This document shows positions 10,406-28,738 of a stretch of DNA of 43,329 bases, in pieces (the stretch's first letter is position 1; the number at the start of each line of letters is the position of its first letter). The notes below the pieces were generated by a model. The model was not told the DNA's origin. It did no database searches and was given only the letters and a program-made list of their open reading frames with translations. The position numbers were made by a program, and so were the translations under genes. Source of the DNA: Verrucomicrobiota bacterium. GTDB taxonomy: Bacteria > Verrucomicrobiota > Verrucomicrobiia > Verrucomicrobiales > Akkermansiaceae. The stretch is from the NCBI GenBank assembly GCA_004294095.1, contig RDZR01000047.1:1-43329 (forward strand). The letters are read 5' to 3'.

Positions 10406-11176
10406 ATGTTCACGATACAAATGTTGCGCACGGCAGAAGTCGATGTGCCATGCCCAGAAGTTTATTGGATGGAGCAATTTGCCGATTGGACGCAGCTCGC
10501 ATTTCAAATGGCCATCATCCGTGGCGAGGGGAAAACGATTCTGGTCAACACCGGCTTTCCGGAAGACATCACCGGCTTGGCCAAGGCATGGGCGGATTTT
10601 CTCGGCCCGCGCTGTGTGCTTGAGCGGCCGGATGCATGGCGCACTCAGCATTTGTTAGAAAATGCGGGTGTCGATCCACTCGAAGTGACGCATGTGTTGA
10701 TCACGCCGATCCAGCTTTATGCGACGGGCTGCATTCACCTTTTCCCGAATGCGAAAATTTGCTTTTCACGCAAAGGATGGATCGAGGACATCATCGCGCC
10801 GGAGTATCCGCACCATGTGCCGCGCCAAGGATGCATCAGCGATGAGCACTTGCGATGGATGATGTTTGAAAATGAGAAGAATCTTATTCTGTTAGATGAC
10901 GTGGCAGAATTGCTGCCGGGCCTCACTTGCCGTTGGGTCGGCGTGCACCACCGCTCGTCGATGCTGATCGAGGTCGCCACTGCCAAGGGTTTGGTGATGC
11001 TCAGTGATTGTGCATTCCACTACTCGAATGTGGAGGATGGCCGCCCGTTAGGCATTGCGGAAAGCATCATTGAGGCGCACGCGGCCTATGCGGATATTCG
11101 CAAGCGCGCTGATCTTTTTATCCCGCTTTACGACCCATTGGTCCAAACACGTTTTCCTAACGGATTGATTGCATGA
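10406..11176 (+). CDS. Metallo-beta-lactamase-fold protein lacking the HxHxDH zinc motif
   Basis: 256 residues that follow the MBL-fold outline of lactonase-type proteins: KTILVNTGFP (residues 43-52), VTHVLIT (94-100), HLFPNAKICFSRKGW, WVGVHHRSSMLIEV (178-190), MLSDCAFHYSNVE, and LFIPLYDP (237-244). Where zinc enzymes have T-H-x-H-x-D-H, this protein has TPIQLYATG (100-108), and the last His of the fold (in a G-H-D type motif) is Tyr. Most metal ligands are therefore missing. In this position of the cluster a lactonase (L-rhamnono-lactone to L-rhamnonate) would be expected. Whether this protein does that without zinc, or has become a binding or regulatory protein, cannot be told. There is no Shine-Dalgarno sequence, and the stop overlaps the next gene as ATGA. 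Confidence 0.7.
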   Translation: MFTIQMLRTAEVDVPCPEVYWMEQFADWTQLAFQMAIIRGEGKTILVNTGFPEDITGLAKAWADFLGPRCVLERPDAWRTQHLLENAGVDPLEVTHVLITPIQLYATGCIHLFPNAKICFSRKGWIEDIIAPEYPHHVPRQGCISDEHLRWMMFENEKNLILLDDVAELLPGLTCRWVGVHHRSSMLIEVATAKGLVMLSDCAFHYSNVEDGRPLGIAESIIEAHAAYADIRKRADLFIPLYDPLVQTRFPNGLIA

Positions 11177-12357
11177 GCCCAGATATCATTACCGATATTC
11201 GCACGACGGATCTTTGCTTCTCACAAGTTCCGCACACGCTGAAAAGAAATTTGTGCACGCCGACATCGCGTTTTAAGCACGATGAAAAATCCCGCGATGC
11301 GCAGTGGTTCGGTCCGGTGGCATTGACTCTCGTCGAGGTGGAAACGGCGGGTGGACTCGTCGGCCACGGCAGCATTGGTGGTTTTACCAGTGCAGGCACC
11401 GAGATCGTAAATACTTATTTAAAACCGTTAGCCATCGGCCATAGCATTTTTGAAACTGAGCTTTTGTGGGATAAAATGGTGCGCTCCACCGTGCGCTATG
11501 GCCGCCGTGGAGTCGCTCTGTGCGCAGTGAGCGGCATCGATATCGCTTGCTGGGATTTAAAAGGAAAACTGTTAGGTCAGCCGGTTTATAATCTGTTAGG
11601 CGGAAAAACTCGCGACCGCGTGCAAGCATATGCGAGCCGTTTGTATGCGATGGAAGATCTCGATGCTCTCGCAGAAGAAGCGCGAGGCTACGTCAAGCAA
11701 GGGTTCAAAGTGCTCAAGCAACGTTTTGGTTTTGCGCCAATCGATGGCACCGATGGCATGAATCGCAACGTCGCCCTGATTCGCGCAGTGCGCGAGGCGG
11801 TAGGCGATGACATCGAAATCGCGGCAGATGCTTACATGGGATGGGACTACGGCTATGCGGTGGAAATGGAAAAACGGCTAAGACCGTATCGCATGGCATG
11901 GATTGAGGAGCCATTTTTGCCAGATGATTTGGGCAGCTATGTGAAGCTGCGCGAGAAAAGCCAGACGCTGATTTCTTGCGGCGAGCACGAATACACCAAG
12001 CAGGGATTTCAGCAATTGATCGATTTGCGGGCCTGCGATATTTTGCAGCCAGACACCAACCGCGTCGGCGGCATTACCGAGATGAAAAAAATCTGCGCGT
12101 TGGCGGAAGCCGCTGGCTTGCCGATTTATCCGCACTCGAATGAGGCGCACAATTTTCATGTGATCGTATCTCAGACGAATTGTCCTCTGGTTGAGTATTT
12201 CCCGAACGTTGAGCCAGATACGGGCAATGAATTATTTTGGAAAGTGTTCACCGGTGAGCCAACGGCCGTGGATGGCTACCTCAGCCCGAGTGACAAACCA
12301 GGCCTCGGCATCGAGATCAATCACGCGGCTGTTGAAAAACTTCGTTGGAAACCATGA
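11173..12357 (+). CDS. rhmD: Enolase-superfamily dehydratase, probable L-rhamnonate dehydratase
   Basis: 394 residues, mandelate racemase/muconate lactonising enzyme family. Metal ligands are Asp219 (AADAYMGWD), Glu245 (WIEEPF) and Glu271 (CGEHEYT). The likely base is His321 (YPHSNEAHNFH). The stretches LQPDTNRVGGITE, EYFPNVEPDTGNELFWKVF and the N-terminal His-rich loop match L-rhamnonate dehydratase (RhmD, EC 4.2.1.90) better than other sugar-acid dehydratases. RhmD removes water from L-rhamnonate to give 2-keto-3-deoxy-L-rhamnonate. An L-lyxonate or L-mannonate substrate is also possible, since RhmD enzymes accept these. The gene is coupled to both neighbours by ATGA overlaps. Confidence 0.85.
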   Translation: MSPDIITDIRTTDLCFSQVPHTLKRNLCTPTSRFKHDEKSRDAQWFGPVALTLVEVETAGGLVGHGSIGGFTSAGTEIVNTYLKPLAIGHSIFETELLWDKMVRSTVRYGRRGVALCAVSGIDIACWDLKGKLLGQPVYNLLGGKTRDRVQAYASRLYAMEDLDALAEEARGYVKQGFKVLKQRFGFAPIDGTDGMNRNVALIRAVREAVGDDIEIAADAYMGWDYGYAVEMEKRLRPYRMAWIEEPFLPDDLGSYVKLREKSQTLISCGEHEYTKQGFQQLIDLRACDILQPDTNRVGGITEMKKICALAEAAGLPIYPHSNEAHNFHVIVSQTNCPLVEYFPNVEPDTGNELFWKVFTGEPTAVDGYLSPSDKPGLGIEINHAAVEKLRWKP

Positions 12358-13265
12358 GTGAAAAAATGCTGCCGTGGCTTCACGGGATTTTGCCTGTTTT
12401 GCCCACGCCATTCACTGCGGATGACGAGGTGGATTTTGCAGTGATCCCTCGCTTGTTAGATTTCGCGGCGCAAAGCGGCATTCGCACCGTCGTCACGCCA
12501 GCCTTCGGCAGTGAGTTTTACAAACTCGATGCGGGCGAGCGTCAGTGCATTCTTGAGACAACGGTCGAGCATGCCAGCGCGCACGGCATCAAGGTCGTCG
12601 CGCAGTGCAATCACAGCACGCCACGGCTTGCGAGCAAGCTTTCAGCAGACGCGGCGCGCGTTGGTGCGGTGGCGGTTTCTACGGCGTTGCCACGCGCATT
12701 CGCGAGCAGCGAGCGGCAGTTGTTAGATCATGCTCGCCGCGTGTGCGATTCCACCGAGCTGCCCGTCATCGTGCAAGATTGGAATCCCGGCGGAGTCACT
12801 GCGGAGGCACCGTTTTTTATCAAGTTGCACCAGCATTGTGAAAATTTTCGCATGGCGAAGTTAGAAGAGCCCGGCATTGGCGAGACGATCCGCCGCATTC
12901 GCGAGGAGACATCGGGCCACGTCGGCGTATTGAGTGGCTGGGGCGGAACCTACGCGCTGCAACTCCACTCCGCGGGCTTGGCGGGACTGATGCCCGGGCT
13001 GGCAACAGCCGATGTGTTTGTGAAAATTTGGCAAAATCTAACAGCCGGAGAATTTTCAAAAGCACTTTCATCCTTCGCCATGATCTCGCCGTATCTGCAA
13101 TTTTCTTTGCAAAACTTTGAGCAATTTCATCATGCGGAAAAACGCTTATTGCAGCGCCGCGGCATCATGCCACATGCACATGTGCGAGCGGTGACGGTGG
13201 ATTTAGATATCGAGTCTAACAGTTATTTGGATCATCTGACTTCCGCCATCGCGCAATCTTTCTAA
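12354..13265 (+). CDS. DapA/N-acetylneuraminate-lyase-family aldolase or dehydratase, divergent
   Basis: 303 residues from the ATG at 12354, which overlaps the dehydratase stop as ATGA. The outline fits the class I aldolase TIM barrel of the DHDPS/NAL family: GILPVLPTPFTADDEVD, then TPAFGSEFYKLDAGER, with the Schiff-base lysine most likely Lys169 in FRMAKLEEPG. The usual Tyr of the YNxP motif is not found: QDWNPGG (residues 141-147) stands in its place. In this cluster it could cleave 2-keto-3-deoxy-L-rhamnonate to pyruvate and lactaldehyde, or carry out a further dehydration. A second DapA-family gene follows at 14417, so the two probably have different jobs. Several TGTTAGA heptamers lie inside the gene (12454, 12722, 13037, 13215). 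Confidence 0.78.
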   Translation: MSEKMLPWLHGILPVLPTPFTADDEVDFAVIPRLLDFAAQSGIRTVVTPAFGSEFYKLDAGERQCILETTVEHASAHGIKVVAQCNHSTPRLASKLSADAARVGAVAVSTALPRAFASSERQLLDHARRVCDSTELPVIVQDWNPGGVTAEAPFFIKLHQHCENFRMAKLEEPGIGETIRRIREETSGHVGVLSGWGGTYALQLHSAGLAGLMPGLATADVFVKIWQNLTAGEFSKALSSFAMISPYLQFSLQNFEQFHHAEKRLLQRRGIMPHAHVRAVTVDLDIESNSYLDHLTSAIAQSF

Positions 13266-13295
13266 CCATTTTCATCAACCCAAAAATCCAAACCC

Positions 13296-14420
13296 ATGGC
13301 AAACCCACTCCTTGGAGTTGCACTGCATGCACTCGGCGGCATCGGTCACGGCTCATTTTACGCACCGCTTAAAAAAGTCCGCGGTTGGGCGTGGGAATCT
13401 GCGTGGCTGGCGCAGGGACTCGCCGCGTGGCTGATCACGCCGTGGCTGGTGGCGTGGCTCACTGGCTCGCAACCGCTCGCCACATTTGCTCAGGCATCGT
13501 GGCATGACATGCGCAATACCTTCCTATTCGGAGCGATTTGGGGCATGGGCAGTTTGACCTTTGGGCTCAGCATGCGATACCTCGGAATGTCGCTCGGCCA
13601 AGCGGTGGCGCTGGGATACACGGTGGCATTGGGCACTTTGATTCCGCCATTGTTAGAAGGAAAATTTGCGGCGATCGTTGCAACTGGGTCTGGCAAAGTG
13701 GTGGTCTTTGGCGTGGTGGTTTGTCTGTTAGGCATCGGGCTTTGTGGGCTTGCCGGAGTGCGCCGCGATCGCGAGCGAGGCGCGCAAAAAACGTCGAGCG
13801 GCCGCTCGCTGTTAGGGCTTGGATTTTTGGTGGCGAGTTTTTCTGGCATCATGAGTTCCGGCTTTGCCTTGGGCATCAATGCGGGCAAACCACTTGCTGA
13901 CTTGGCCCTGAAAAACGGCTCGCCATCGATTTTCCAAAACAGCCCGACGTTCATTTTAGTCATGGCCGGCGGCTTGTCCGTGAATCTGATTTGGTGCCTC
14001 TATTTGGGGATGAAAAATCGCTCAACGGGTGATTTTTTAGGAAACATTTCTAACAAACATCACGATTGGAATGGCGCACCTGCCATGGAGAAGCATCAGC
14101 CAGGATTTTTGAAAAAAAATTACCTGTGGGCATCAATCGCCGGAGTGACCTGGTATGTTGGCTTCATGCTGTATGGCATGGGCACCACGTTCATGGGCGA
14201 TTATCATTTCGTCAGTTGGTCGATCCATCTGGCATTTGTGATCGCTTTTAGCACCTTGTGCGGCATTCTTGCCCGCGAGTGGAGCGGGGTGCGGCCACTC
14301 ACCGCGGTGTGTGTGGCCGTCGGCATGGCGGTGCTCGTTGGCTCCACATTGATCACGGCCAGCAGCGATGCGCTCGCGAAAAAATTTCCATCCATTTTCA
14401 CAGAAAAATCTCAACCATGA
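13296..14420 (+). CDS. rhaT: L-rhamnose/proton symporter, RhaT family
   Basis: 374 residues, nearly all hydrophobic, with about ten membrane helices. It follows RhaT segment by segment: HALGGIGHGSFYAPLKKVRG with WAWES at the start, FLFGAIWGMGSLTFGLSMRY then LGMSLGQAVALG, GTLIPPLLEG, SGFALGINAGKP, and WYVGFMLYGMG near the end. E. coli RhaT is 344 residues, and the extra length lies in cytoplasmic loops and the C-terminal tail. It would import L-rhamnose or a related 6-deoxyhexose with a proton through the inner membrane. Its presence inside the cluster is the strongest argument that the neighbouring enzymes act on L-rhamnose. The 30-bp leader is A/C-rich and lacks a Shine-Dalgarno sequence. 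Confidence 0.88.
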   Translation: MANPLLGVALHALGGIGHGSFYAPLKKVRGWAWESAWLAQGLAAWLITPWLVAWLTGSQPLATFAQASWHDMRNTFLFGAIWGMGSLTFGLSMRYLGMSLGQAVALGYTVALGTLIPPLLEGKFAAIVATGSGKVVVFGVVVCLLGIGLCGLAGVRRDRERGAQKTSSGRSLLGLGFLVASFSGIMSSGFALGINAGKPLADLALKNGSPSIFQNSPTFILVMAGGLSVNLIWCLYLGMKNRSTGDFLGNISNKHHDWNGAPAMEKHQPGFLKKNYLWASIAGVTWYVGFMLYGMGTTFMGDYHFVSWSIHLAFVIAFSTLCGILAREWSGVRPLTAVCVAVGMAVLVGSTLITASSDALAKKFPSIFTEKSQP

Positions 14421-18003: not shown

Positions 18004-18031
18004 TTGACAAAATGGTTGTGGGAACTATTCG
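18004..18031 (+). promoter_or_regulatory. Putative promoter of the secreted PDG-repeat protein gene
   Basis: A perfect -35 hexamer TTGACA at 18004-18009, a 16-bp spacer, and a weak -10 TATTCG at 18026-18031, eight bases before the ATG at 18040. This supports 18040 as the start rather than the in-frame TTG at 18004, which would be the -35 box itself. Confidence 0.5.
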
Positions 18032-18039
18032 CATGGAAG

Positions 18040-19392
18040 ATGAAAAAAGTTGTAAATTCTTCTGATAGCGCCAGATCTCGGTGGTTTCCTGAACATTTTT
18101 CTTTTCAACGTCCCAGTCTTCGCTTGGCCCTCATATTGACCTCGGCCTGTTTCGCTCTCGCCGCCGGACCCATTCTGCGCGCCCAAGGTGCTCTCACTCC
18201 GCCCGGTCCGCCGGCACCCACACAGCATTCGCTAGAAGAGCTTTATTCTCTGCTGATCGGCCAGCAGGCCCAGCTCTCACAACTGCAAGGGCAGCTCACC
18301 CGCTTTCAACTAGAGAACCGCTTACTCTTCTATTATAACGACGCGCTCGCTTGGATAAACACTCTCATAGTCGGCGGAGGCAACACCGGTGCTCAGGCCT
18401 CGGTCGCTTTTCCCCGCACCCCCAGCGCTCCCCTCGGCCGCCCCGCCATCGCTTACTTCGACGTGGGCTCGGGCAGCCTGAACTACGCCTACAACTTCGC
18501 CGACGACACCCAGTGGTCCGCCTACACCGTGGACGCGAGCGGCGGGCGCTACCTCTCGCACGCACTCGCGCCCGACGGCCGCTCCGCCATTGCCTACTAC
18601 GATCAAAACACCGGCGACCTTAAGTTTGCCCTCGCTGTGAGCGAAAATGATCCCGGCCAAGGATTTAACGTCAGCACAGTCGATGCGGTGGGCAACGTCG
18701 GTGCCCACGCCTCTCTCGCCTACGGCCCAGATGGCCAACCCGCCATCGCCTACTTCGACGCCACCGGCTTGAACTTGAAATTTGCCCAATACAACGGCAG
18801 CACATGGACACTAAGCACCGTCGCCACCGCGGGCGATGTGGGTCGCCACACCAGTCTGGCTTTCAGTCCAGACGGTGCCCCACATATTGCTTTTTCCGAC
18901 AATGGCAACCTGCGTGTCCTACGTTTCCTCTCTGGCTTATGGACTCTCGGCGCATACCCCTTCTCAGTCTCTGACGTGCGCGAGACCAGCCTGCGCTTCG
19001 ATGCCCAGGGGCAACAGCATCTCGTTTACATTTCTGGATCAGTCAGCAGCGGGCTCAATCATTTCGTATACGGCCCGAGCGGGAACACCTCCACCCTACT
19101 TCAAGCCAACGCCGGCATCGTAGTCACCACCACGGGGCAAAGTTTAACCTTCGGGCCCGACGGCCGCCCCGTGATCGCTTACTATCACAGCTACATCGGT
19201 CAACTCAATCTCGCCCGCCTCACACCTACGGGCTGGAGCCAACGCGTGCTGGCCGCCGCATCTCCGGGCAGTCCGGCCGAGCTTGGCCGCGCTGCCATCG
19301 GCTTCGACCCCACCGAGCTAAAATTTATCCTCGCCCACTACGAAGGCAATGCGGGCACGTTGCGCCTCCTGCGCCCTGGCCTCGCGCCGTGA
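18040..19392 (+). CDS. Secreted protein with PDG-type repeats, probable beta-propeller-like fold
   Basis: 450 residues from the ATG at 18040. A basic N-terminal region leads to a signal peptide (LRLALILTSACFALAAG), then QGALTPPGPPAPTQHSLEEL, a segment also found in the beta-helix protein at 20061-21080. A short helical stretch rich in Gln and Leu (about residues 66-90) may be a coiled coil. From about residue 115 on, a unit recurs: S-L-A/F-x-P-D-G-x-P-x-I-A-Y-F/Y-D followed by L-x-x-A, at least six times at about 40-50-residue spacing, suggesting a beta propeller. Codons end mostly in C or G and the gene lacks TGTTAGA, unlike genes on either side. The function is unknown, perhaps a cell-surface or secreted binding protein. 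Confidence 0.72.
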   Translation: MKKVVNSSDSARSRWFPEHFSFQRPSLRLALILTSACFALAAGPILRAQGALTPPGPPAPTQHSLEELYSLLIGQQAQLSQLQGQLTRFQLENRLLFYYNDALAWINTLIVGGGNTGAQASVAFPRTPSAPLGRPAIAYFDVGSGSLNYAYNFADDTQWSAYTVDASGGRYLSHALAPDGRSAIAYYDQNTGDLKFALAVSENDPGQGFNVSTVDAVGNVGAHASLAYGPDGQPAIAYFDATGLNLKFAQYNGSTWTLSTVATAGDVGRHTSLAFSPDGAPHIAFSDNGNLRVLRFLSGLWTLGAYPFSVSDVRETSLRFDAQGQQHLVYISGSVSSGLNHFVYGPSGNTSTLLQANAGIVVTTTGQSLTFGPDGRPVIAYYHSYIGQLNLARLTPTGWSQRVLAAASPGSPAELGRAAIGFDPTELKFILAHYEGNAGTLRLLRPGLAP

Positions 19393-19637
19393 CGTCTCCA
19401 AGAGGCGCGCGGCGATGCGGCACTTCACCTCGATCATGATGACCTCGTAGCCCATCAATGGCTTGCCTGCAGCAGGTCGGAGGCATGAGGCCTACCCGTA
19501 GCCAACGGATGAATTTCAAACTCACTTCTCTGGGACGATAGAGGGCTCATATGGCCCAATGGAGGTGGAACAACCAATCCAATAATCATTGTTGAAACTC
19601 GCTTGCTTGGCATTTTTTATTGCACTCACCATGAAAT
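19393..19637. other. Intergenic region without a supportable gene
   Basis: About 245 bp between the PDG-repeat gene and a leftward small membrane-protein gene. The first 110 bp are GC-rich. On the minus strand they can be read as a short protein-like stretch (GYEVIMIEVKCRIAARLLET) with no start or continuation, possibly the remains of a gene. I could not identify it, and I see no terminator or RNA. Confidence 0.35.
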
Positions 19638-20033
19638 CTAAAAAACGATTTCGGCGAGATTTTCCGCTGGGCGCGTCCGTTCCCATTGCATTAGGAAAAA
19701 GCAGGACCCGGCGTAACCCAGCGCCACCCATGCCTGCACCCCGGCGGCGAACCAAAGCACAGGCGGTTTTTTTCCCGCAGTTTTGAGCGGCGGGATGATG
19801 CTGCCCTCTGGCACCGGAACGGAAGTCCCAGACATTGCCTCCGCGCTCTTTTCCATCGGCGGCGTGGTCTCGACTACGCGCTCGGCGGAGGGCTCATAAC
19901 CCGCAGGACCGGCGTTCGGATGGAACTGCTGAAAAAGAAACATCCCGAGAATATCAAAAAGCACGGCTTTTTTTACACCGAGAATTTCATCGGAAAAAAC
20001 GCGCAGGGAATCTGATATTCTGGGCACTCGCAC
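19638..20033 (-). CDS. Small membrane protein of unknown function
   Basis: 131 residues from the ATG at 20033; an internal ATG at 19943 would give a shorter form. The N-terminal third is amphipathic (VKKAVLFDILGMFLFQQF). The middle is Pro/Glu-rich. A hydrophobic helix near the C-terminus (VLWFAAGVQAWVALGYAGSC) is followed by a charged tail. I do not recognise the family. The gene begins 27 bp after the end of the beta-helix protein gene on the same strand, so the two may be co-transcribed. Coding status is likely but not certain. Confidence 0.45.
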   Translation of the reverse strand: MRVPRISDSLRVFSDEILGVKKAVLFDILGMFLFQQFHPNAGPAGYEPSAERVVETTPPMEKSAEAMSGTSVPVPEGSIIPPLKTAGKKPPVLWFAAGVQAWVALGYAGSCFFLMQWERTRPAENLAEIVF

Positions 20034-20060
20034 CGAGGCAAATGGCCATCATCCGCTAGC

Positions 20061-21080
20061 TCATTCACTGGCTGGCACACAGGCATCGCGCTGACCTCCT
20101 GCGGAGACATCGATTTGTCTGTCCACGGTAGCTGGGTCTGTGCTGTTGCCGCTGGCAACGCAGTGGGCGGCGACGCCGATGCCGACAGAGATCCCGCTTT
20201 TGAAATTACCTGAAGCCCGGCTGTTGGTCACGCTGCCAGCGATGGCGGCAATGCCGCGGTCACCATTGTTGGCAGCGCTGGCATTGGTCACAATCCCATT
20301 TTCGGCAAAGATGCCGCTGCCACCATTAGATGAAGCGGTCGCATTTGTCACGCTGCCGTTGCTGGTATTGATGCCGTTGCTATTATTGTTGATGGCGCTG
20401 GCATTGGTCACGTTGCCAAATTGGGCGACTATACCACTGCTGCCATTGTTGGTGGCGGTGGCATTGGTTATATTGCTTTTGGGGGCGTAAATGCCAAAAT
20501 TGCCGTTGTTATTCACCGAAATGTGAAAAAGAGCTCCCTGACCATCGAGGTCAATTCCATTCGATCCGCACTGCTCTACTGTGAGATGGGAGAGAAGAAC
20601 TCCGCTGGCGTTAGATAGCTCCTGATCGTTGATGCCGATGAGCCAGCCCTGGCCCTCAAAAGTGGCATTCCATGGTTTGGGGCCAGTGGGGGTGCGGACG
20701 GTGCCGCCGGTAATGCGTCCGTTCTTGATCTCAATGCTGCGAAGATTCCCGGCGATGTTAATCGCATTTCCTGCTGCGGGGCTTACGGTCTTGCTGATGA
20801 GGGCGAAGCCGTTGAGATCGAGCGTGACATTTCTGGCTGTGATGTTGATGCCGTTGCCGCTGGCGACTTCGACGTTGCCGACGAGGTAATACGAACCCGG
20901 CTGGGAAATGGTGAAATGCGGCCCGGCGATAGGCACGGCGGGACTCCCAGGAATGGCAGTGCGAGCCTCGATTTGGTCGAGTGTTTTCATCGTCGGCGCA
21001 GGTGTGCCGGGCGGTGATAGCGGGCCTTGAGCGAGAGTGGCGGTGGCCGTAACAAATAGCATTAGGACAATTTTCTTCAT
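20061..21080 (-). CDS. Secreted right-handed parallel beta-helix repeat protein
   Basis: 339 residues from the ATG at 21080 (MKKIVLMLFVTATATLAQG is a clean signal peptide; a longer open frame upstream adds an implausible basic leader). After the signal comes GPLSPPGTPAPTMKTLDQIE, shared with the PDG-repeat protein. Then follow the typical opening of right-handed beta-helix proteins, SQPGSYYLVGNVEV then NGINITARNVTLDLNGF, and further coils (SIEIKNGRITGG, GVLLSHLTVEQCGSNGIDL). Residues about 187-286 contain five 20-residue coils rich in Asn, Gly, Ala and Thr. Many such proteins bind or cleave surface polysaccharides. I see no catalytic motif that would call it a lyase. It is probably secreted or surface-bound. 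Confidence 0.8.
   Translation of the reverse strand: MKKIVLMLFVTATATLAQGPLSPPGTPAPTMKTLDQIEARTAIPGSPAVPIAGPHFTISQPGSYYLVGNVEVASGNGINITARNVTLDLNGFALISKTVSPAAGNAINIAGNLRSIEIKNGRITGGTVRTPTGPKPWNATFEGQGWLIGINDQELSNASGVLLSHLTVEQCGSNGIDLDGQGALFHISVNNNGNFGIYAPKSNITNATATNNGSSGIVAQFGNVTNASAINNNSNGINTSNGSVTNATASSNGGSGIFAENGIVTNASAANNGDRGIAAIAGSVTNSRASGNFKSGISVGIGVAAHCVASGNSTDPATVDRQIDVSAGGQRDACVPASE
20221..20520 (-). repeat. Five tandem 60-bp units encoding 20-residue beta-helix coils
   Basis: The anchor GCATTGGTCA (or a one- to three-base variant) recurs at exactly 60-bp spacing at 20221, 20281, 20341, 20401 and 20461. Each unit encodes a coil of the form VTNA-S/T-A-x-N-N-G-x-x-GI-x-A. The strict 60-bp period points to duplication of a single coil. 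Confidence 0.85.
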
Positions 21081-21214
21081 GGTGATCGTAGTTGGTTGAG
21101 ATTGGCAATGGCTTGGTTGGGGCTTATGTGTAGAGCGGTAGCGGCCAAATCGAGCGAAAAAGCTCAGAAATCGGGAGAAGATTTTCATGACGCTGCCTAG
21201 TTGTTGCCAGAATG

Positions 21215-21385
21215 ATGATTGAAAGCAAAATTGAATTCAATCTAACAAAAATTAGAAGACGATTCTGGCGGCTCACCCTCGATCACCCCGTTACTGGCAA
21301 GCGCCTCAAATTTGAAGCGCCCATCCCCGAGGATTATCACCCTTGGTTGGACCTTCCTAGCGCGATAAATCAACTTTCGTTCTAA
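21215..21385 (+). pseudogene. Orphan C-terminus of an RluA-family pseudouridine synthase
   Basis: A 56-codon open frame (ATG 21215, TAA 21383-21385). Residues about 18-47, RFWRLTLDHPVTGKRLKFEA followed by PIPEDYHPWLD, match the extreme C-terminus of RluA/RluD-type 23S rRNA pseudouridine synthases, in which H-P-x-T-G-K/E-x-L-x-F-x-A-P-x-P is characteristic. The catalytic domain is absent: upstream lies the divergent start of the beta-helix gene. The first 15 residues look unrelated. It is best read as the 3' remnant of a gene truncated by insertion or deletion, marking a recombination boundary. It may or may not be translated. Confidence 0.65.
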
Positions 21386-21423
21386 AAATCTCAAATTTCG
21401 TGTAATGAAACCACCCGCTTGCT

Positions 21424-21429
21424 TATAAG
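21424..21429 (+). promoter_or_regulatory. -10-like element directly before the kinase gene
   Basis: TATAAG lies six bases before the ATG at 21436, the same spacing as at the OmpA-like gene. No good -35 hexamer is visible 16-18 bp upstream. AAGG within it could also act as a weak ribosome-binding site, so the reading is ambiguous. Confidence 0.35.
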
Positions 21430-21435
21430 GTAAGT

Positions 21436-23382
21436 ATGGAAATCAATCCTGAGCACGCCCCGCTTGCTGGCCTCAATCCAGCCGACCTCCTCCGCCAAGG
21501 CGCGGCAGAGGACACCTTCATGGACATCGCGCCCTCTTCTTTTAATCCGTTGCCGATCGAAGAACTCGCCGTTATTTTCCCACAATTTGATGTCCTCGAA
21601 CTCATTGGCAAAGGCGGCATGGGTGCCGTTTACAAAGTCCGCCAAAAAGATCTGGATCGCATCGTCGCGCTGAAAATTTTGCCCCCCGGCATCGGCCGAA
21701 CGCCGGAATTCTCAAATCGCTTCACCCGCGAGGCCAAGGCCCTGGCCAAGCTGAACCACCCCGGCATCGTCACGCTCCACGAATTTGGCCAACAGGACGG
21801 GCTCTATTTCATCCTCATGGAATTCGTGGACGGAGTGAACCTCGCCCAACTCATGAAAACCGGCCGGATCTCGTCGCGCGAGGCCCTGGCCATCGTCCCA
21901 CAGATTTGCGATGCATTGCAATTCGCCCATGACCAAGGCATCGTCCACCGCGATATCAAGCCGGAAAACCTCCTGCTAGATCGTCATGGCCGCGTGAAAG
22001 TCGCCGACTTCGGCATTGCCAAGGTAGTGGCCGCAGTCTGTGAAGAGCCTATAAGAGGTGGGGCCACTCCTGTCCCCAACGATGCGACCCTTGCCGGAAA
22101 AGTCCTCGGCACCCCCCAATACATGGCACCCGAGCAAATCGAGCATCCGTCCGATGTCGATCACCGCGCAGACATTTACGCCCTCGGTGTCGTCTTCTAT
22201 CAAATGCTAACAGGCGAGCTGCCGGAGAAGGATCTGCAAGCCCCATCGCGCAAAGTCCAGATCGACGTCCGCCTCGACGAGATCGTCCTGCGGGCAATGG
22301 AAAAACAACCGGACCTGAGATACCAAACCGCCCATGAATTCCGGACGATCGTTGATGGATTTCAGGAGCAAGCTCAGCCTCCATTATTTCCACTACCGAA
22401 ACCCAAGCGAGGTGTTTTGCAGCGTTGGTGGTGGGTTTTTCTCGTCATGATTCCAGTCGGGCTATTGATCGGTATCGCGGTAGGATCGATGTTGGCATAC
22501 GTCTTTCCGAAGAAATACGAAGCAGAAACGGTGATCGAATTCAGGCCCGTGGCAAACTTGATGATGACCTCCAGTCTCTTCGCGGATCAGTTTGAAACCA
22601 TCACATCACAAGATTCATTAATCGCAGTCGCGAATGAACTGGATTTACCAAACCAATGGATGCTCAGCCAGGACGCCGTGATTCAACGACTGAAAAGCAT
22701 CATCACCACCCAGAACATCCGAGGCACCAACCTGATCGCCATCCGAGTGCGTCACTCCGACAGGCAGAAAGTCGCAGCGATCGCCAAAGCACTAGCTCTA
22801 AACTATCAGCAAGTCGCACCCGGAGAAGTCGTCATTCATGAAGACGCGATGGAACCGACAATTCCCGTCTCGCGGATTGTGGGGTGGGTGCTTTTCCGTG
22901 GTGGATTCCTAGGCCTCATTTTCTCACCACTTTTGAGCCTCATCGCGATCGCGGTTTTGCGGAAGAAGTTTCCCGAAAAGTTGATCGCAAACGCTCCATT
23001 ACAGGCAAACGGGCAGGCTACTGCTAAGGATCAGGTAGCTGGGAAATTAAAGACTGCAGGAGATATCTCCTCACGAACCAATACGCACTTAGATTCGTTC
23101 GCTGTAACTTCGTTTGTTCTTGGATTAGCCTCCTTGATTGTTGGCCCACTTGGGTCGTTACCAGCGATCATTTTCGGGCATATTGCCCTTTTGAGAATTA
23201 AATCGAACCCGTGGACTACAGGGAACGGCTATGCGTTGGCGGGTCTTGTTCTCGGCTACATTACTCTAATTTTGATCATAATCGTTATCGTGGTTTTTGG
23301 CTACACGACGTCACTTTTCACAGTATTTCCAAATGAATGGAGAGCTTCTTTACTTGAAACGTCCCGTTTTCATGACCGATGA
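21436..23382 (+). CDS. Membrane Ser/Thr protein kinase fused to a Wzz-like periplasmic domain and DUF4190
   Basis: 648 residues in three parts. Residues about 51-310 are a Hanks-type kinase: GKGGMGAVYKV glycine loop, Lys80 (VALKIL), HRDIKPEN (171-178), DFG (191-193) and GTPQYMAPEQ. It looks catalytically complete. A membrane helix (about 331-356) is followed by about 125 periplasmic residues beginning PKKYEAETVIEF, resembling Wzz/polysaccharide co-polymerase proteins, and a second helix at about 481-508. Residues about 552-620 match DUF4190: FAVTSFVLGLASLIVG, then IIFGHIALLRIK and GYALAGLVLGYI. The kinase would be cytoplasmic and the middle domain could sense envelope state or glycan export. 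The stop overlaps the ECF sigma gene by four bases, implying a shared pathway. Confidence 0.85.
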   Translation: MEINPEHAPLAGLNPADLLRQGAAEDTFMDIAPSSFNPLPIEELAVIFPQFDVLELIGKGGMGAVYKVRQKDLDRIVALKILPPGIGRTPEFSNRFTREAKALAKLNHPGIVTLHEFGQQDGLYFILMEFVDGVNLAQLMKTGRISSREALAIVPQICDALQFAHDQGIVHRDIKPENLLLDRHGRVKVADFGIAKVVAAVCEEPIRGGATPVPNDATLAGKVLGTPQYMAPEQIEHPSDVDHRADIYALGVVFYQMLTGELPEKDLQAPSRKVQIDVRLDEIVLRAMEKQPDLRYQTAHEFRTIVDGFQEQAQPPLFPLPKPKRGVLQRWWWVFLVMIPVGLLIGIAVGSMLAYVFPKKYEAETVIEFRPVANLMMTSSLFADQFETITSQDSLIAVANELDLPNQWMLSQDAVIQRLKSIITTQNIRGTNLIAIRVRHSDRQKVAAIAKALALNYQQVAPGEVVIHEDAMEPTIPVSRIVGWVLFRGGFLGLIFSPLLSLIAIAVLRKKFPEKLIANAPLQANGQATAKDQVAGKLKTAGDISSRTNTHLDSFAVTSFVLGLASLIVGPLGSLPAIIFGHIALLRIKSNPWTTGNGYALAGLVLGYITLILIIIVIVVFGYTTSLFTVFPNEWRASLLETSRFHDR

Positions 23383-24086
23383 GCACGCCCGATGAATTCT
23401 TCGCCACCACACGCTGGACGATGGTCCGGGCGGCGGGCGCATCGGCGGGCGATGCCTTGGAATCCTTATGCGTGGCGTATTGGTATCCATTGTATGCCTA
23501 TGTCCGGCGGCATGGATATTCCAAAGAAGATGCGGAGGATCTAACACAGGCATTTTTTGCGAAGCTATTGGCGCGACAAGATTTCGCCGGACTCAAGCAA
23601 GAGAACGGTCGCTTCCGGGCCTTCCTTTTGGCAGCGCTGAAGAACTTTCTCGCCAACGAGCGCGACCGTGCAGGACGGCTGAAACGCGGCGGAAGCATCA
23701 CCCATCTTTCCCTCGATTGGCAGAGCGCAGACACGCAATTCCAGATTGCCGACCGTGTGCAATTGCCACCGGATGCGGCGTATGATCGGGAGTGGGCGCT
23801 TGTGTTGTTAGAGAAAGTCATTGTTCAATTGCGGGATGAAGCCGAAGCAGAGGGATGGCTCGTGCGTTTTGAACATTTCAAAGCATATTTAACTGCTGAG
23901 AAGAATGAGATCCCGTATGCCACCACCGCTGCCGCACTCTCGATGGAGGAAAGCGCGGTGCGGGTCGCAGTTCATCGCTTGCGAAAGCGCTATCGCGAAT
24001 TCCTGCGAAAGGAAGTCGCCCACACTCTGTCCGATCCGGATATGATTGCGGAAGAACTCGCGGCCTTGCTTGGCGCATTTCATTAG
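23379..24086 (+). CDS. ECF-family RNA polymerase sigma factor coupled to the kinase
   Basis: 235 residues. Region 2 is DALESLCVAYWYPLYAYVRR, then YSKEDAEDLTQAFFAKLL and FRAFLLAALKNFLANERDR. Region 4 is YATTAAALSMEESAVRVAVHRLRKRYRE. It belongs to the ECF-like group of Planctomycetes, Verrucomicrobia and Acidobacteria whose genes usually adjoin Ser/Thr kinases, where kinase phosphorylation is thought to control the sigma factor in place of a classical anti-sigma. Here the kinase comes first and the sigma ATG overlaps its stop as ATGA. TGTTAGA heptamers at 23540 and 23806 are two of the four found in this otherwise motif-poor block. Confidence 0.9.
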   Translation: MSTPDEFFATTRWTMVRAAGASAGDALESLCVAYWYPLYAYVRRHGYSKEDAEDLTQAFFAKLLARQDFAGLKQENGRFRAFLLAALKNFLANERDRAGRLKRGGSITHLSLDWQSADTQFQIADRVQLPPDAAYDREWALVLLEKVIVQLRDEAEAEGWLVRFEHFKAYLTAEKNEIPYATTAAALSMEESAVRVAVHRLRKRYREFLRKEVAHTLSDPDMIAEELAALLGAFH

Positions 24087-24216
24087 ACGACCTCCACCTC
24101 ACGAGCGAAGAACTCTACCAGAGGTTTTAGCGAGCTCTTGCCGATCGCCCGCAGCAACCATTCGATACTCAGGAAAACGATCAAACTTAAAAAACCGCTT
24201 GCGTGCTCGTTCTATC

Positions 24217-24237
24217 TGTATTACTACAAGTAATACA
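24217..24237 (+). promoter_or_regulatory. Perfect inverted repeat, probable operator of the GntR/YtrA-type repressor
   Basis: TGTATTAC, five bases (TACAA), then GTAATACA: a perfect 8-bp dyad ending 11 bp before the GntR ATG. It overlaps the -10-like TACAAT at 24234-24239, so bound repressor would block transcription. YtrA-subfamily regulators typically bind such dyads in their own promoters. Autoregulation is inferred from this placement. Confidence 0.8.
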
Positions 24238-24248
24238 ATTTTGCGGTC

Positions 24249-24638
24249 ATGCTTCCATTCACTATTCAAATTCAACTCGGGGAGCCGATCTACGAACAGA
24301 TCGTCCGTGCAGTGAAAAAAGCAGTTGCCACGGGTCAACTCCTGCCCGGTGCACAAATGCCATCCGTCCGCGTCATCAGCCGCGAGTTGAGCGTGAACCC
24401 GAACACCGTCCAGAAAGCCATCAGCCGCCTCACCGACGAAGGCGTGCTCGCCAGCCACCCCGGCTCTGGAAGTTTCGTCGCCGAGCGCGGCCCCTCTCCC
24501 CGTGCGGAGCGGCTCAGCGCCCTCAAGCCTCTCATCGAACAACTCCTCGTCGAGTCCGCCCACCACGGACTCACGGCCGACGAACTCCTCGAACTCATCC
24601 GCCAACATCACCAGAGAAATTATGGAAACGATCATTGA
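24249..24638 (+). CDS. GntR-family transcriptional regulator, YtrA subfamily
   Basis: 129 residues. The winged helix-turn-helix at about residues 10-78 has the GntR pattern: GEPIYEQIVRAVKKAVATG, then LLPGAQMPSVRVISRELSVN, PNTVQKAISRLTDEGVL and GSGSFVA. A short C-terminal helical tail of about 45 residues replaces the large effector domain of other GntR proteins, which defines the YtrA group. These repress adjacent ABC transporter operons and are often induced by cell-wall-active compounds. It overlaps the ATPase gene by 17 bp and is preceded by a perfect palindrome. Confidence 0.92.
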   Translation: MLPFTIQIQLGEPIYEQIVRAVKKAVATGQLLPGAQMPSVRVISRELSVNPNTVQKAISRLTDEGVLASHPGSGSFVAERGPSPRAERLSALKPLIEQLLVESAHHGLTADELLELIRQHHQRNYGNDH

Positions 24639-25521
24639 AGCCCGCAACCTCGGCAAACGCTATCGCCAAAAAGACGCCGTCCACGCCCTGAGCCTCTCGC
24701 TACCCGCCGGGCGCGCCTGTGCCTTCCTCGGCCGCAACGGCGCAGGCAAAACCACCACCATCAAAATGCTCGCCGGCTTGATCCGGCCCGACAGCGGATC
24801 GTGCTCGCTCTTCGGCCAAGACTCACAACACCTCCGCCCCGAGGACTGGCAGAAAACCGGTTACGTTTCCGAAAATCAAGAACTCTACGACTGGATGACC
24901 GGCGAACAACTCATCGCTTTCACCTCCAAGCTCTACCCCTCATGGGACAAACCGTTTGAAAAAGAGTTGTTGGAAAAACTCGGAATCCCGCTCCGCCGCC
25001 GGGTCTCCTTCTGTTCGCGCGGCGAGAAGGTGAAACTCGCCCTTCTGCTAGCCATGGCCTTCCGCCCGCGCCTGCTCATCCTCGATGAACCCTTCGCCGG
25101 ACTCGACCCACTGGTTAGATCCGAATTTCTCGACACCGTGCTCGAAATCACCCACCAAAACGACTGGTCGATCTTCTTTTCCACCCATGACGTTGACGAC
25201 GTAGAAAAACTCGCCGACGACGTGGTCATCATCGACGAAGGCCGCCTCCAAGTTTCCGAATCGCTCGATTCTTTACAAAACCGCTTCCGCCGCATCGACC
25301 TCCAAGGTCCGCACGAGCCGTTGATGAAAACCGCTGCCATCCTTGGGCTCGAACGCCACGCGGACCACAGCCGCTTCATCCACTCCGCCTTCAATAGCGA
25401 GACCCTCGCCACGCTTGAGGCCAACCATTCCGAGGCGCACATTGATGTTTCCACAATCTCACTCAAGGAAATCTTCATCGCTCTCGCCAAAAATTTTCAA
25501 ACCGAAAACCCACGCTCATGA
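24622..25521 (+). CDS. ABC transporter ATP-binding protein
   Basis: 299 residues from the ATG at 24622. The Walker A motif is GRNGAGKTT (about residues 38-46). The signature is degenerate, with CSRGEK replacing LSGGQ. The Walker B motif is LLILDEPFAGLDP and the switch is STHDVDD. The signature variant is common in YtrB/CcmA-type ATPases of GntR-linked transporters. About 75 C-terminal residues follow the nucleotide-binding domain. It would drive the two membrane proteins encoded next, whose gene starts overlap in series. The longer frame upstream (from 24502) lies inside the GntR gene and is not used. Confidence 0.92.
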   Translation: METIIEARNLGKRYRQKDAVHALSLSLPAGRACAFLGRNGAGKTTTIKMLAGLIRPDSGSCSLFGQDSQHLRPEDWQKTGYVSENQELYDWMTGEQLIAFTSKLYPSWDKPFEKELLEKLGIPLRRRVSFCSRGEKVKLALLLAMAFRPRLLILDEPFAGLDPLVRSEFLDTVLEITHQNDWSIFFSTHDVDDVEKLADDVVIIDEGRLQVSESLDSLQNRFRRIDLQGPHEPLMKTAAILGLERHADHSRFIHSAFNSETLATLEANHSEAHIDVSTISLKEIFIALAKNFQTENPRS

Positions 25522-27167
25522 ACCTCTTGTTCCACCATGTCTGCAAAGACCTGCGGCACTCGCGCTGGCTCATCGTTCTCACTTGGCTCACCGCTGCCTG
25601 CATCCTTTGGCTGCCTGCCTCGCTAGTCGAGAAGCGCGTCGAAGTGATGCAATGGTTGCCCTACATCAGCTGCGGCGCATGGGTGCTGGTTTTTCTAACA
25701 GCCGGTCGTATCGTGCAGCTCGATGCACCACGCCGCGACACCGCCTTCCTCCGGAGCCGCCCGTTTTCTTCTAGCGATTGGCTCGCTTCCAAACTCTCCT
25801 CATGCTTGATCCTCATCCTCCCCATGGCACTTCTCCAAGTGGCGATGGTCCTGGTTACCGGACTCAGACCGGAATTCATCGACCTATTACTCATCTTCTT
25901 CGAAGAAATGCTCGCGTTCTGTGTGGTCATGACTCTAGCACTGGCGATTGCCACTAGGTCGAAAACCTATTCAAACTTCATCGGCACCACGATGGTTATC
26001 TTTTTCGCCGCATATATCATCTTTGTCATGTATATGATTGCGGAAAAACAACTCGCTCGGACCACGAAATCCGAGTGGAGCTATGACAATGAGTATCTCA
26101 AGCTCAGCAGGCTTCTCATCACGCAAGTGATTGCGGTTCTCGGTCTAGCAGGTGGACTATTCCTATGCATGCGCGCCCGCCGTCCTGAACGACTCGCGGC
26201 CGTCATCTCAAGCACCGTCATGATCGCCGCTCTCGCATGGTTCTTCTGGCCACTAAACTTCGTGAAAACCTTCACCCGCCCCGAAGCCACAGCACCGCGC
26301 TCGGAATGGCCGGATCTCTCCAAGTTAAAACTCTCCTTCCGCGAGCAGGAATCGTGGTCGCAAAAAAAGGCGGGATCGGTGCCCGCAAGGTTCTCTTTCT
26401 CGGACGGAGTTTACAACGATACAACTTATCGCCGCATCAGTGGTCACACGCAACTCGATGGGCTTCCCGAGGAATGGTTTGCCTTCCCGAACAGCTTTGA
26501 ATACGAGCTATCACTTACCAACGGCAAAACCTTTTCAGGTCGATACACCGCTTCGGCTGGTTTGTGGGAGTTGATGGCTCTGCCCTTAGTGGGCATGGCG
26601 CTGCCTTGGGACAAATCAACCAACCCATTGTGCGATGTCGAACTCGCGGAGTTCCCCTTGCCGAAAGCCGCGGATGCGATGACCGGCGCGAAACTTCGGG
26701 GCAACGTCCATGTTCCATTCAAACGCCCTGTCATTCTCGGGCGCCTACCATTGCGCGCGGCTGCCTCCACAAAGATCGGCAACCGCCACATCTCGATCAC
26801 GGAAGTCGAGCGGAACGATATGGAAATCCGTTACAAACTAGCTATCGAACAACTTCGGGTGCTGACTCGTGGCGACTGGTATTCCGAGTCTCACCGCAGA
26901 ATAGAATTCCTCGCCGTCAACGTCGCAAAACGAGAGTTCCTCAGACAAGGAAGTGCAGAATCATCAGGTCGTTCATTTGGCCACTATTCTTTGCAGTTTC
27001 TTGACTTCAGTCAAACCATCCACCGAGATCTCACGAAAGAACACGATGGTGGTATCATCCCCGAAGATTGGCTCAATGGTGCAGAACTCCTGATCGTGGG
27101 AGATGAGTTTGGCGGCACACTTTCCCAATCCTTCGACTTCTCCGAAGTAACCCTGTCCAACCCATGA
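25518..27167 (+). CDS. ABC transporter membrane protein with large C-terminal extracytoplasmic domain (first of a tandem pair)
   Basis: 549 residues. The N-terminal half (about 1-250) has about six membrane helices, arranged like ABC-2-type permeases (FHHVCKDLRHSRWLIVLTWL at the start). The remaining 300 residues have no membrane segment and probably form a beta-rich domain outside the membrane. Landmarks shared with the next gene are GLPEEWFAF, RPVILGRLPLRAAAS, RGDWYSESHRRIEFL and WLNGAELLIVGDEFGGT. I do not recognise this domain. The gene overlaps the ATPase gene and the next permease by four bases each. Codons end mainly in C, like the rest of this operon. Confidence 0.78.
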   Translation: MNLLFHHVCKDLRHSRWLIVLTWLTAACILWLPASLVEKRVEVMQWLPYISCGAWVLVFLTAGRIVQLDAPRRDTAFLRSRPFSSSDWLASKLSSCLILILPMALLQVAMVLVTGLRPEFIDLLLIFFEEMLAFCVVMTLALAIATRSKTYSNFIGTTMVIFFAAYIIFVMYMIAEKQLARTTKSEWSYDNEYLKLSRLLITQVIAVLGLAGGLFLCMRARRPERLAAVISSTVMIAALAWFFWPLNFVKTFTRPEATAPRSEWPDLSKLKLSFREQESWSQKKAGSVPARFSFSDGVYNDTTYRRISGHTQLDGLPEEWFAFPNSFEYELSLTNGKTFSGRYTASAGLWELMALPLVGMALPWDKSTNPLCDVELAEFPLPKAADAMTGAKLRGNVHVPFKRPVILGRLPLRAAASTKIGNRHISITEVERNDMEIRYKLAIEQLRVLTRGDWYSESHRRIEFLAVNVAKREFLRQGSAESSGRSFGHYSLQFLDFSQTIHRDLTKEHDGGIIPEDWLNGAELLIVGDEFGGTLSQSFDFSEVTLSNP

Positions 27168-28738
27168 AGCTCTTGATCCACCTCTGCCGCAAAGATTACT
27201 CATTCGCCAAGCATACCTTGTGGGGCGCATGGGCGGTTTTCCTGGTCGCCGTGCTGATGCCGGTCATCATGACCGGACCGTTGGTCAATGCCGGCGCGCC
27301 GTTCCTCGTGTTGGTCTCCATTGCACCGCTGTTGCTGATTTTCGCCGCCACGCTCAGAATCCTCCGTGCCGATTCGTTCACGGGCGGTCATGCCTTCATC
27401 GGCACACGCCCAGTAACGATGACGATGTTATGGTTATCCAAACTCATTACCATCGCCGCCTTCGTTTTGTTGCCTTGGCTGCTCGCCCAGATCATCGGCG
27501 TATTTGCTCTGGGCCTACATCTCACGCCCGCCGACTGGATGCTATTTCTGATCGAGAAAAAACTACTTTTCGGCATTGCCATGGCAATTCCGTTGATGGT
27601 CGGCACTCACACGCGGAACTTCGGGTGGACGACTCTGCTCACCATCACGTTTACTATCCTGATGATACGGTTCGCGACCACCACTCTTGGCAAACCTGGA
27701 GGCTTGGACTTCATTATGGAAGCCCGCTACCTCAGGGCCTCGCAATGGCTGGTCACACAGCTCCTGATCTCCATAGCGGCACTCCTGCTCTCATGGCTGT
27801 GGATGGTCCGAAGAAACTTGTCGTGGAGCATTGCCGTCGGGCTGATTGCAATAGCGGGCATTGCAATCGTTTCCACAAATTGGCAGGTGAACTTCGTGGA
27901 GAAACTAGCTTTCTCAAAAGCCCCAGCGGCACCGAACCTTTGCATCACTTGGCTTGACGGACCGAGCATCTCCGGCAGTTCGCGCAACCATGAGCAATTC
28001 ACGAGGGTCATCCGGGACGCCAAGTTAGAAGGTGTTCCCGATGGGTGGATCGCGAGCTTTTCAGGTATCCGAGCGAACGCGCATTTCCACAATGGCGGCG
28101 TGATGACAGGCGATACCATCAACTCCAGAAAATACGGCGATTTTTCACGGGCTTTGTTGCCAGCTCTCGGTGTTGATTTGCCCATGAATCATCCTGATCG
28201 TCTAAATCAATGGAATTTCATCACTTGGTTCGAAGCCGAGTCATCCTTGTTGCGTGACCGTCCGGATCCAGTTGCCACGATCTCAGGCACATGCATGGTC
28301 GAACTCGATCAGCCAGTCGTCCTCGCGAATCTTCCAGCGCGGAACGGAGCCAGTGCCAGCAATGGACGTTTCCTCTATCGCGTCGAGAGTGTGGAGCCAT
28401 CCGGTAGTAGCATTTCGGTGAAACTAACCGTTTGCGGTGCCACTCTCGGTAGCCGGGGCGATTGGAGCGACAGTCTAAGAGGCATCGAAATACTGCTCAT
28501 TAACCCGAAGATAGGCAAGCAAACTCAAAGTCAATGGAGTGGAGGTTCAACCAGCGGCCTTGGATGGGCGAGCCTACGGCGAGATCTTAGCATAGATGAT
28601 TGGCCAAACAGTGGAACTAGCGATCCCTTAGCCTTCCTCAATGGAGCACGCCTTTACGTGATCGGTCGCCGCCATGGTGGAACCGTGCCCCTTCCTTTTG
28701 ATATTCCAGAAATCCGGCTGGAAAAAAATGGATTGTGA
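27164..28738 (+). CDS. ABC transporter membrane protein with large C-terminal extracytoplasmic domain (second of a tandem pair)
   Basis: 524 residues, a diverged paralogue of the preceding gene. About six membrane helices occupy residues 15-235. The extracytoplasmic domain covers about 240-524 with matching landmarks: LEGVPDGWIASF, QPVVLANLPARNGAS, RGDWSDSLRGIEILLI and FLNGARLYVIGRRHGGT. The two proteins probably form a heterodimeric permease with the ATPase at 24622. The cargo is unknown. GntR/YtrA linkage suggests export or relief of an envelope-active compound. The operon probably ends here, but I see no hairpin terminator. Confidence 0.78.
   Translation: MKLLIHLCRKDYSFAKHTLWGAWAVFLVAVLMPVIMTGPLVNAGAPFLVLVSIAPLLLIFAATLRILRADSFTGGHAFIGTRPVTMTMLWLSKLITIAAFVLLPWLLAQIIGVFALGLHLTPADWMLFLIEKKLLFGIAMAIPLMVGTHTRNFGWTTLLTITFTILMIRFATTTLGKPGGLDFIMEARYLRASQWLVTQLLISIAALLLSWLWMVRRNLSWSIAVGLIAIAGIAIVSTNWQVNFVEKLAFSKAPAAPNLCITWLDGPSISGSSRNHEQFTRVIRDAKLEGVPDGWIASFSGIRANAHFHNGGVMTGDTINSRKYGDFSRALLPALGVDLPMNHPDRLNQWNFITWFEAESSLLRDRPDPVATISGTCMVELDQPVVLANLPARNGASASNGRFLYRVESVEPSGSSISVKLTVCGATLGSRGDWSDSLRGIEILLINPKIGKQTQSQWSGGSTSGLGWASLRRDLSIDDWPNSGTSDPLAFLNGARLYVIGRRHGGTVPLPFDIPEIRLEKNGL

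Follow-up and report, generated by a model that had tools for sequence, protein, structure and literature searches.

Extracytoplasmic function (ECF) sigma factors of group ECF43 do not carry the full acidic DAED motif in region sigma2.2, and a phosphothreonine restores the charge there (PMC8103513, PMC8999054, PMC13147305). In the pairs EcfP/PknT of Vibrio parahaemolyticus and EcfK/PknS of Xanthomonas citri, as the passages on them in these papers have it, the gene of a membrane-bound Hanks-type kinase lies beside the sigma factor gene and the kinase activates the sigma factor; EcfK keeps one acidic residue at the DAED place and is also phosphorylated at Thr106, within the linker between sigma2 and sigma4 (PMC13147305). 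Outside ECF43, the kinase-linked ECF groups retain a DAED-like motif; they may act in another way, by a mechanism that is yet to be shown according to a 2022 review (PMC8999054). Here, we describe a kinase-sigma pair in a stretch of 43,329 nucleotides (nt) from a Verrucomicrobiota bacterium (contig RDZR01000047.1; hereafter, the window), which is contig C112 of a 3.0-Mb genome (G000). Its first gene encodes a predicted Hanks-type Ser/Thr kinase fused to a domain that derives from polysaccharide co-polymerases (PCPs), and its second gene an ECF-type sigma factor with an intact DAED motif. We propose, with a probability of roughly one half, that the pair acts as a self-amplifying, kinase-gated ECF switch, in which phosphorylation of the sigma factor outside sigma2.2 is the favoured route.

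How does this locus compare with the described systems? Like the ECF43 pairs, it has the gene of a membrane Hanks kinase adjoining that of an ECF sigma factor; unlike them, its DAED motif is complete, and the literature passages on these pairs mention neither a PCP tail nor a KGTAAC promoter. Groups ECF59, ECF61, ECF62, ECF217 and ECF283, likened here by their description in part of the review (PMC8999054), share kinase neighbours and a DAED-like motif with the window. Four of them are represented there by Planctomycetes, where the sigma family of the window also occurs, and by analogy the window pair may belong to the same open class. With regard to the tail, the best fold match is to Wzc and related bacterial tyrosine kinases (BY-kinases), in which a PCP domain with two membrane helices is likewise coupled to a cytoplasmic kinase. 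Theirs, however, is a C-terminal P-loop tyrosine kinase, whereas the window protein has a Hanks-type kinase on its N-terminal side, lacks the helical arm and has a sigma factor as partner. KpsE and Wzz/WzzE share the two-helix core fold spanning membrane and periplasm and have a long arm, but no kinase. No fusion of a Hanks kinase to a PCP domain appeared in the titles or abstract openings of the open-access papers listed for kinase-Wzz fusions, kinase-sigma pairs of Verrucomicrobia and polysaccharide co-polymerases, and the term 'wzz' is absent from PMC11032199 and PMC8567305.

Architecture of the fusion protein

The kinase fusion is an open reading frame (ORF) of 648 amino acids (aa) at 21436–23382; like all features given below, it lies on the forward strand. 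Its TGA stop overlaps the ATG start of the sigma factor ORF (23379–24086, 235 aa) by 4 nt, ATGA, at 23379–23382. Two related loci, L041 and L210, show this 4-nt overlap at an ATG as well, and L043 and L046 may have it at a TTG. An earlier note on this DNA had proposed a kinase-Wzz-DUF4190 fusion whose stop overlaps the start of an ECF sigma gene, and exact ORF coordinates, Pfam, homology and fold confirm this arrangement.

The kinase domain (aa 52–275; 21589–22260) matches Pkinase PF00069 at E 2.1e-50, has its motifs GKGGMG, VALKI, HRDIKPEN, DFG and APE intact, with K80, D173 and D191 as catalytic residues, and is nearest to PknB among solved chains; from these signatures it is assigned to the Hanks-type Ser/Thr kinases. 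P-loop tyrosine kinase families (AAA/CbiA/ParA) are absent from the 12 families listed as matching the fusion at E up to 1, which sets it apart from the BY-kinases. The DUF4190 membrane domain (aa 556–616; 23101–23283) scores 55.7 bits against a cut-off of 35 (E 4.1e-15). GC content is 57.4% in the kinase part, 50.8% in the PCP part, 45.6% in the DUF4190 part and 55.7% in the sigma gene.

Between kinase and DUF4190 lies the PCP domain (aa 327–497; 22414–22926). While Pkinase and DUF4190 are firm Pfam calls, Wzz (PF02706) is weak by itself, covering aa 327–402 with 18.7 bits against a cut-off of 25.5 (E 0.0023). Three lines of evidence firm up this part of the earlier domain assignment. A protein encoded on contig C62 of the same genome matches the segment with 44% identity over about 90 residues (E 1.1e-16). 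This protein combines Wzz, GNVR and AAA_31, i.e. it is a Wzc-type BY-kinase, and its gene is followed by a Wza-type Poly_export/SLBB gene; its Wzz match exceeds the cut-off in one scan (27.9 bits), but both Wzz and GNVR fall under theirs in another. Further, a 16-row profile of the domain matches solved Wzc (E 8e-7) in two blocks, Wzc 39–110 and 391–450, with a short link between them. Finally, the structural model of the domain (pLDDT 93) has Wzc as its top Foldseek match (E 8.2e-8), and aligns to Wzc in VIA-align 2 with Z 18.6 and a root-mean-square deviation of 5.7 over 182 residues, followed by KpsE (Z 14.9) and WzzE (Z 11.1), while unrelated folds reach at most 8.8. Together, homology and fold rule out that the Wzz call is a chance match or an artefact.

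Hydrophobic stretches flank the PCP region, and the model shows a membrane helix, a periplasmic alpha/beta base and a second helix. An extended periplasmic helical arm is a feature of solved PCP members. As the two Wzc blocks are joined by a short link in the alignment, we call the domain PCP-derived and arm-less: judging from sequence and model, it is a PCP core that keeps both membrane helices and has no helical arm. Within an R-G-T-x-L segment, G, T and L are invariant in 16/16 PCP rows. With the window segment as query, matches at E ≤ 0.001 were obtained in 158 of the 239 genomes of the order, and most of the matches listed lie in open frames of about 720–780 aa.

Recurrence with sigma factors of one family

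Is the fusion peculiar to this genome? We surveyed 47 loci from a search with the sigma factor together with 239 genomes of the order, 387 of the phylum and 260 of the family (the sets overlap), fetching 20, 17 and some more candidate regions, so that the resulting count is a lower bound from chosen candidates. At least 12 distinct ORFs combine a kinase with a PCP domain (the window, G009, G118, G122, G141, G167, G648, G649, G650, G655, G661 and L039), and in 11 of the 12 a sigma factor gene of the same family lies within 2 kb on the same strand. Other kinase-Wzz fusions with sigma partners, which the earlier note had suggested looking for, therefore exist. Both gene orders occur: the kinase comes first in the window, G009, G661 and L039, and the sigma factor in the other seven sigma-linked fusions. 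The fusion of G122 (L152) has no sigma factor of the family in the surrounding 14 kb; the second block of its PCP match lies near aa 728–762, which suggests that it may keep the helical arm. It adjoins a gene resembling pyrroloquinoline quinone (PQQ) dehydrogenases and a beta-lactamase-family gene. In G141, the kinase frame is broken near its start.

A second view comes from the sigma factors found by the sigma search itself, a set of 47 unique genes with a match span of at least 180 residues (shorter pieces in L054, L079 and L080 were dropped). Flanks of 1.2 kb to either side were available for 43 of these; a same-strand kinase lies within 300 bp in 39/43 and within 2 kb in 41/43. When all 76 unique sigma factors are considered, some of them chosen for their kinases, the figures are 61/69 and 66/69 of those with enough flank. 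No kinase match at all was found at L049 and L069, and one sigma factor of L142 has a kinase on the opposite strand only. In a Mantel test, tree distances of sigma factors and kinases correlate with r 0.52 (0/2000 permutations as high), a value to which shared species history contributes; the test used 61 rows, 9 of the initial 70 having been removed because they were short or identical. The coupling of kinase and sigma factor is well supported by genomic context.

In some near relatives, a small gene separates the two. In G009, a bPH_5 membrane protein and an ankyrin protein intervene, in G661 an SLBB protein, and in L036 and L037 an open frame that by eye resembles the bPH_5 one. At L210 (G648:C270:46000-60000), positions 2061–13338 hold two tandem sigma-kinase pairs, in the first of which the kinase has a PCP tail. 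Divergent from these lies a third kinase-sigma pair, and a further sigma factor of the family is encoded at 12601–13338.

PCP-like parts also occur outside kinase fusions. In L116, L123 and L216 (G228, G257 and G678), one forms the N-terminal part of ORFs of 1102–1321 aa that have no kinase match, a case of the PCP core put to another use; VWA and YfbK_C domains occur in the L123 protein. Two apparently arm-less PCP proteins, of 230 and 216 aa, are encoded on their own at L124:4923–5615 and L224:5065–5715, and are a possible source of the kinase tails.

Exchange of kinase tails

While kinase and sigma factor stay together, the tails are exchanged. The kinase domain at L037 is 84% identical to that of the window and the sigma factor 75%, yet the kinase tail there consists of ExbD and two DUF4019 domains and shows no match to the window tail. 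G009 carries PCP, ExbD and DUF4019, and G661 carries PCP, DUF4190 and SLBB. Other tails on such pairs are ExbD/DUF4019, SecDF_P1_head and HEAT repeats. Because the G661 tail matches that of the window up to aa 645 (39% over 105 aa, E 1.8e-22) and then continues into SLBB, the window tail looks like a shortened form of it. Wza-type SLBB domains are found in the G650 and G661 fusions alike, and G661 has a separate SLBB gene in addition. On the sigma tree as well as on the kinase tree, the PCP label needs at least 6 changes, with gain and loss indistinguishable (6 and 7 before the G141 label was corrected; mean after shuffling, 9.5).

The sigma factor and its candidate phosphosites

The sigma factor falls just under the curated cut-offs of TIGR02937 (41.8 against 42.9 bits) and PF04542 (22.9 against 24), and its closest named relatives lie in metagenome-assembled genomes of Verrucomicrobia. 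A profile of the family aligns its sigma2 and sigma4 parts to SigE of Mycobacterium tuberculosis (E 2.2e-5), and with sigma2 and sigma4 as its only predicted regions it is placed among the ECF sigma factors. The structural model (pLDDT 81; residues 1–10 of low confidence) gave no Foldseek match with E under 0.001; ECF sigma factors rank first, at E no better than 0.02, and the model is not used as an argument here. Residues 51–54 (23529–23540) form the intact DAED core-binding motif of sigma2.2, at the place where SigE has DAEDLTQE. Across the family, position 54 is D or E in 76/76 members and position 51 is acidic in 65/76.

Three residues outside sigma2.2 each could be a phosphosite or only structural. 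Thr11 (23409–23411), in an N-terminal F-x-T-T-x-W-[ST] motif, is a candidate phosphosite or helix cap and is T in 73/73 rows with a letter there (3 are gapped). Ser111 (23709–23711), in the sigma2-sigma4 linker, is S in 60/76; judged by its position in the linker, it is comparable in place with Thr106 of EcfK. Thr216, near the C-terminus, is Thr in 72/76. We also considered finding a phosphosite by its correlation with kinase adjacency, which is impossible with Thr11 invariant in all readable rows, including those without a kinase nearby.

A promoter upstream of the operons

The putative ECF-type autoregulatory promoter of the window, TGTAAT-N16-TTATAA (21401–21430), has a −10 element that ends 7 nt before the start codon of the kinase fusion, and it shares spacing and position with 10 related upstream regions whose consensus is KGTAAC-N16-TTCTRA. 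Setting aside L044, which lies at a contig edge, and L046, which sits within a sigma-kinase-sigma operon, we read 14 upstream regions of kinase-first operons. In each of them GTAAC, or GTAAT in the case of the window, is followed by a 16-nt spacer; a TTCTRA-like element comes next in 11/14, and GTCAGGA or CTCAGGA in the remaining 3/14, which belong to another sigma branch. A scripted search of the 110 bp upstream found GTAAC before 13/15 kinase-first units, the exceptions being the GTAAT variant of the window and L046 with none, compared to 21/427 mechanically called control ORFs of the same loci. These 15 units, and the 30 sigma-first units discussed below, come from loci whose names give Verrucomicrobia or one of its genera, and from genomes of the phylum to which the window belongs; as the operons are related, the counts are not independent.

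A matrix of the 11 sites finds, at ≥15 bits, just those 11 in 486,956 bases, counting both strands, a partly circular result. In leave-one-out scoring, 8/11 reach 24.7–30.5, whereas the window scores 12.3, L043 11.5 and L137 15.0; the window copy is a weak variant, placed by position and spacing. Since the −10 ends 7–10 nt before the called start codon in 11/14, the message may be leaderless. ECF promoters typically have AAC in the −35 and CGT in the −10 element according to the passage on them in PMC8103513, and the AAC directly before the operon fits the former. A conserved promoter in front of their own operons suggests autoregulation of these pairs. For the sigma-first units, we note that GTAAC lies within 320 bp in 14 of all 54, Planctomycetes included, and that the letters after the spacer of the 11 near sites fall into groups such as GGTARN and TGAATS if equal spacing is assumed. 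At L114:4550–4580 (G141), a GTAAC site lies between the sigma and kinase genes, so that this kinase may have its own copy of the promoter.

The earlier note had also suggested a search for exopolysaccharide genes with a shared promoter motif. The 20 kb around the Wzc-type and Wza-type genes of the same genome contain no site at ≥15 bits, a threshold at which sites as weak as the window's own would be missed. Across 73 genomes of the genus, the strict pattern occurs at 6 sites in 6 genomes, 2 of these sites at operons already known, against 5 in the control, and a one-mismatch scan of the window gave 3 matches where 1.5 were expected, a number reached by 18/100 shuffles. One of the six other matches of a looser pattern in G000 (C19:16459; L241:1960–6049) is separated by 7 nt from the start codon of an exported CotH/LTD protein of 1351 aa, which could be a second target; at this background level, however, the match is not evidence of regulation.

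Genomic neighbourhood

About 160 nt downstream of the sigma gene, window positions 24249–28738 encode a GntR-family regulator, an ATPase of the ATP-binding cassette (ABC) type and two large membrane proteins whose ABC2 matches are weak and under the cut-off. No anti-sigma family was matched in the pair or in the 7 neighbour proteins scanned with Pfam (18004–28738), in keeping with the earlier statement that the locus has no classical anti-sigma factor. A scan of the region for sigma-70 promoters and terminators gave counts no higher than shuffles, and a repeat scan showed nothing notable.

Discussion

What might such a pair do in the cell? The kinase would reside in the inner membrane, with a shortened Wzc/KpsE-type PCP domain in the periplasm and the helical pair of DUF4190. 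PCP domains are known to assemble into rings within the complexes that export polysaccharide, so the tail probably either self-assembles or becomes part of the Wzc-type complex of the cell, depending on the state of export or of the envelope. The assembly state of the PCP domain would set kinase activity. Once active, the kinase would phosphorylate the co-translated sigma factor, or else a site on which release of the sigma factor depends, away from the sigma2.2 motif. The sigma factor would then transcribe its own operon from KGTAAC-N16-TTCTRA, plus further targets. Kinase activity on the sigma factor, the phosphosite, the ligand and the sigma factor that reads this promoter are what we infer here. 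It is the origin of the domains that points to polysaccharide sensing: as they derive from the export machine, and as G650 and G661 have Wzc-type and Wza-type pieces, export state would be a reasonable signal.

Several observations weigh against this proposal. The intact DAED motif argues against a need for phosphorylation, because with it the sigma factor may bind RNA polymerase unphosphorylated. L049 and L069, the loci without any kinase match, share Thr11, and the conservation of this residue may hence be structural. A scan of 19 window proteins revealed no polysaccharide export genes. GTAAC precedes only 11/30 sigma-first units outside Planctomycetes, and the three further members of the family in the same genome all lack it. 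The −10 element is not of the CGT type given as typical of ECF promoters in the consulted part of PMC8103513. With the strict promoter pattern, G009 and G661 yield only kinase-sigma operons that were already known, and G000 yields no match; the loose pattern gives 7 matches in G000 compared to 5 in a reversed control.

The earlier note had suggested a route by phosphorylation of the sigma factor. Its first half, the pairing of kinase and sigma factor, is backed by genomic context; its one characterised version does not fit. In an ECF43-type switch, a phosphorylated Thr or Ser in sigma2.2 would provide the negative charge for polymerase binding, and both the adjacent Hanks kinase, as in EcfP/PknT and EcfK/PknS, and Thr56 directly behind DAED (kept in 60/76) would suit it. 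No charge is missing from the DAED of the window, though, and with the two acidic positions of the family as conserved as stated above, this mechanism is disfavoured and very improbable; if the kinase controls the sigma factor, it probably does so in a way other than that known from ECF43. An intact DAED would rather lead one to expect an inhibitor than an activator. The kinase might thus be an anti-sigma factor in function, a membrane anchor that holds the sigma factor until autophosphorylation or a rearrangement of the PCP ring releases it, making sigma phosphorylation unnecessary. The lack of anti-sigma families among the scanned neighbours agrees with this, and the tight translational coupling suggests binding at birth; but Pfam recognised no anti-sigma-like domain in the kinase, and as tails differ wholly between relatives, binding would need the kinase domain or the juxtamembrane part. 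We regard this alternative as rather unlikely, though it comes next after the favoured reading.

Two further alternatives concern the tail. That PCP and SLBB tails derive from the two halves of the export machine could mean that polysaccharide export is the main target of the kinase, which would enter the Wzc ring and phosphorylate proteins of the export machine, while the sigma factor simply controls expression of the operon. The same kinase-sigma pair occurs with other tails, however, so that its conserved partner is the sigma factor and not the export machine, which makes this account improbable. Conversely, the PCP tail might be only a membrane anchor or dimeriser that senses no polysaccharide, the signal entering elsewhere. 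The missing helical arm, the swapping of tails with at least 6 changes of the PCP label on either tree, and the lack in the window of the SLBB part found in G661 would all be expected then; the recurrence of PCP in 11 sigma-linked fusions and the retained residues of the R-G-T-x-L segment would not, and we find this account equally improbable. Control of the sigma factor through phosphorylation outside sigma2.2 remains the reading we prefer. A wider version of it, possible but held tentatively, would see in these proteins a Ser/Thr-kinase counterpart of Wzc. A lineage would have taken up the inner-membrane (PCP) and periplasmic (SLBB) parts of the polysaccharide export machine as exchangeable sensor heads on Hanks kinases, and each kinase would be wired by its operon to an ECF sigma factor that has a −10 element of its own; export state would thereby be passed on to transcription without the charge restoration of ECF43.

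Kinase-linked ECF groups with a DAED motif have been described before, and the window pair is a variant of this known pairing of kinases and ECF sigma factors. The locus makes a compact test case: it consists of two genes, the catalytic residues of its kinase are clear, the fold of its sensor domain is known, and a candidate promoter lies in front. The puzzle posed by the intact DAED, the promoter and a PCP sensor that lacks the arm make it worth testing. No route of this kind appears in the titles and abstract openings of the open-access papers listed on the topic; the pair could link polysaccharide export to transcription in Verrucomicrobia.

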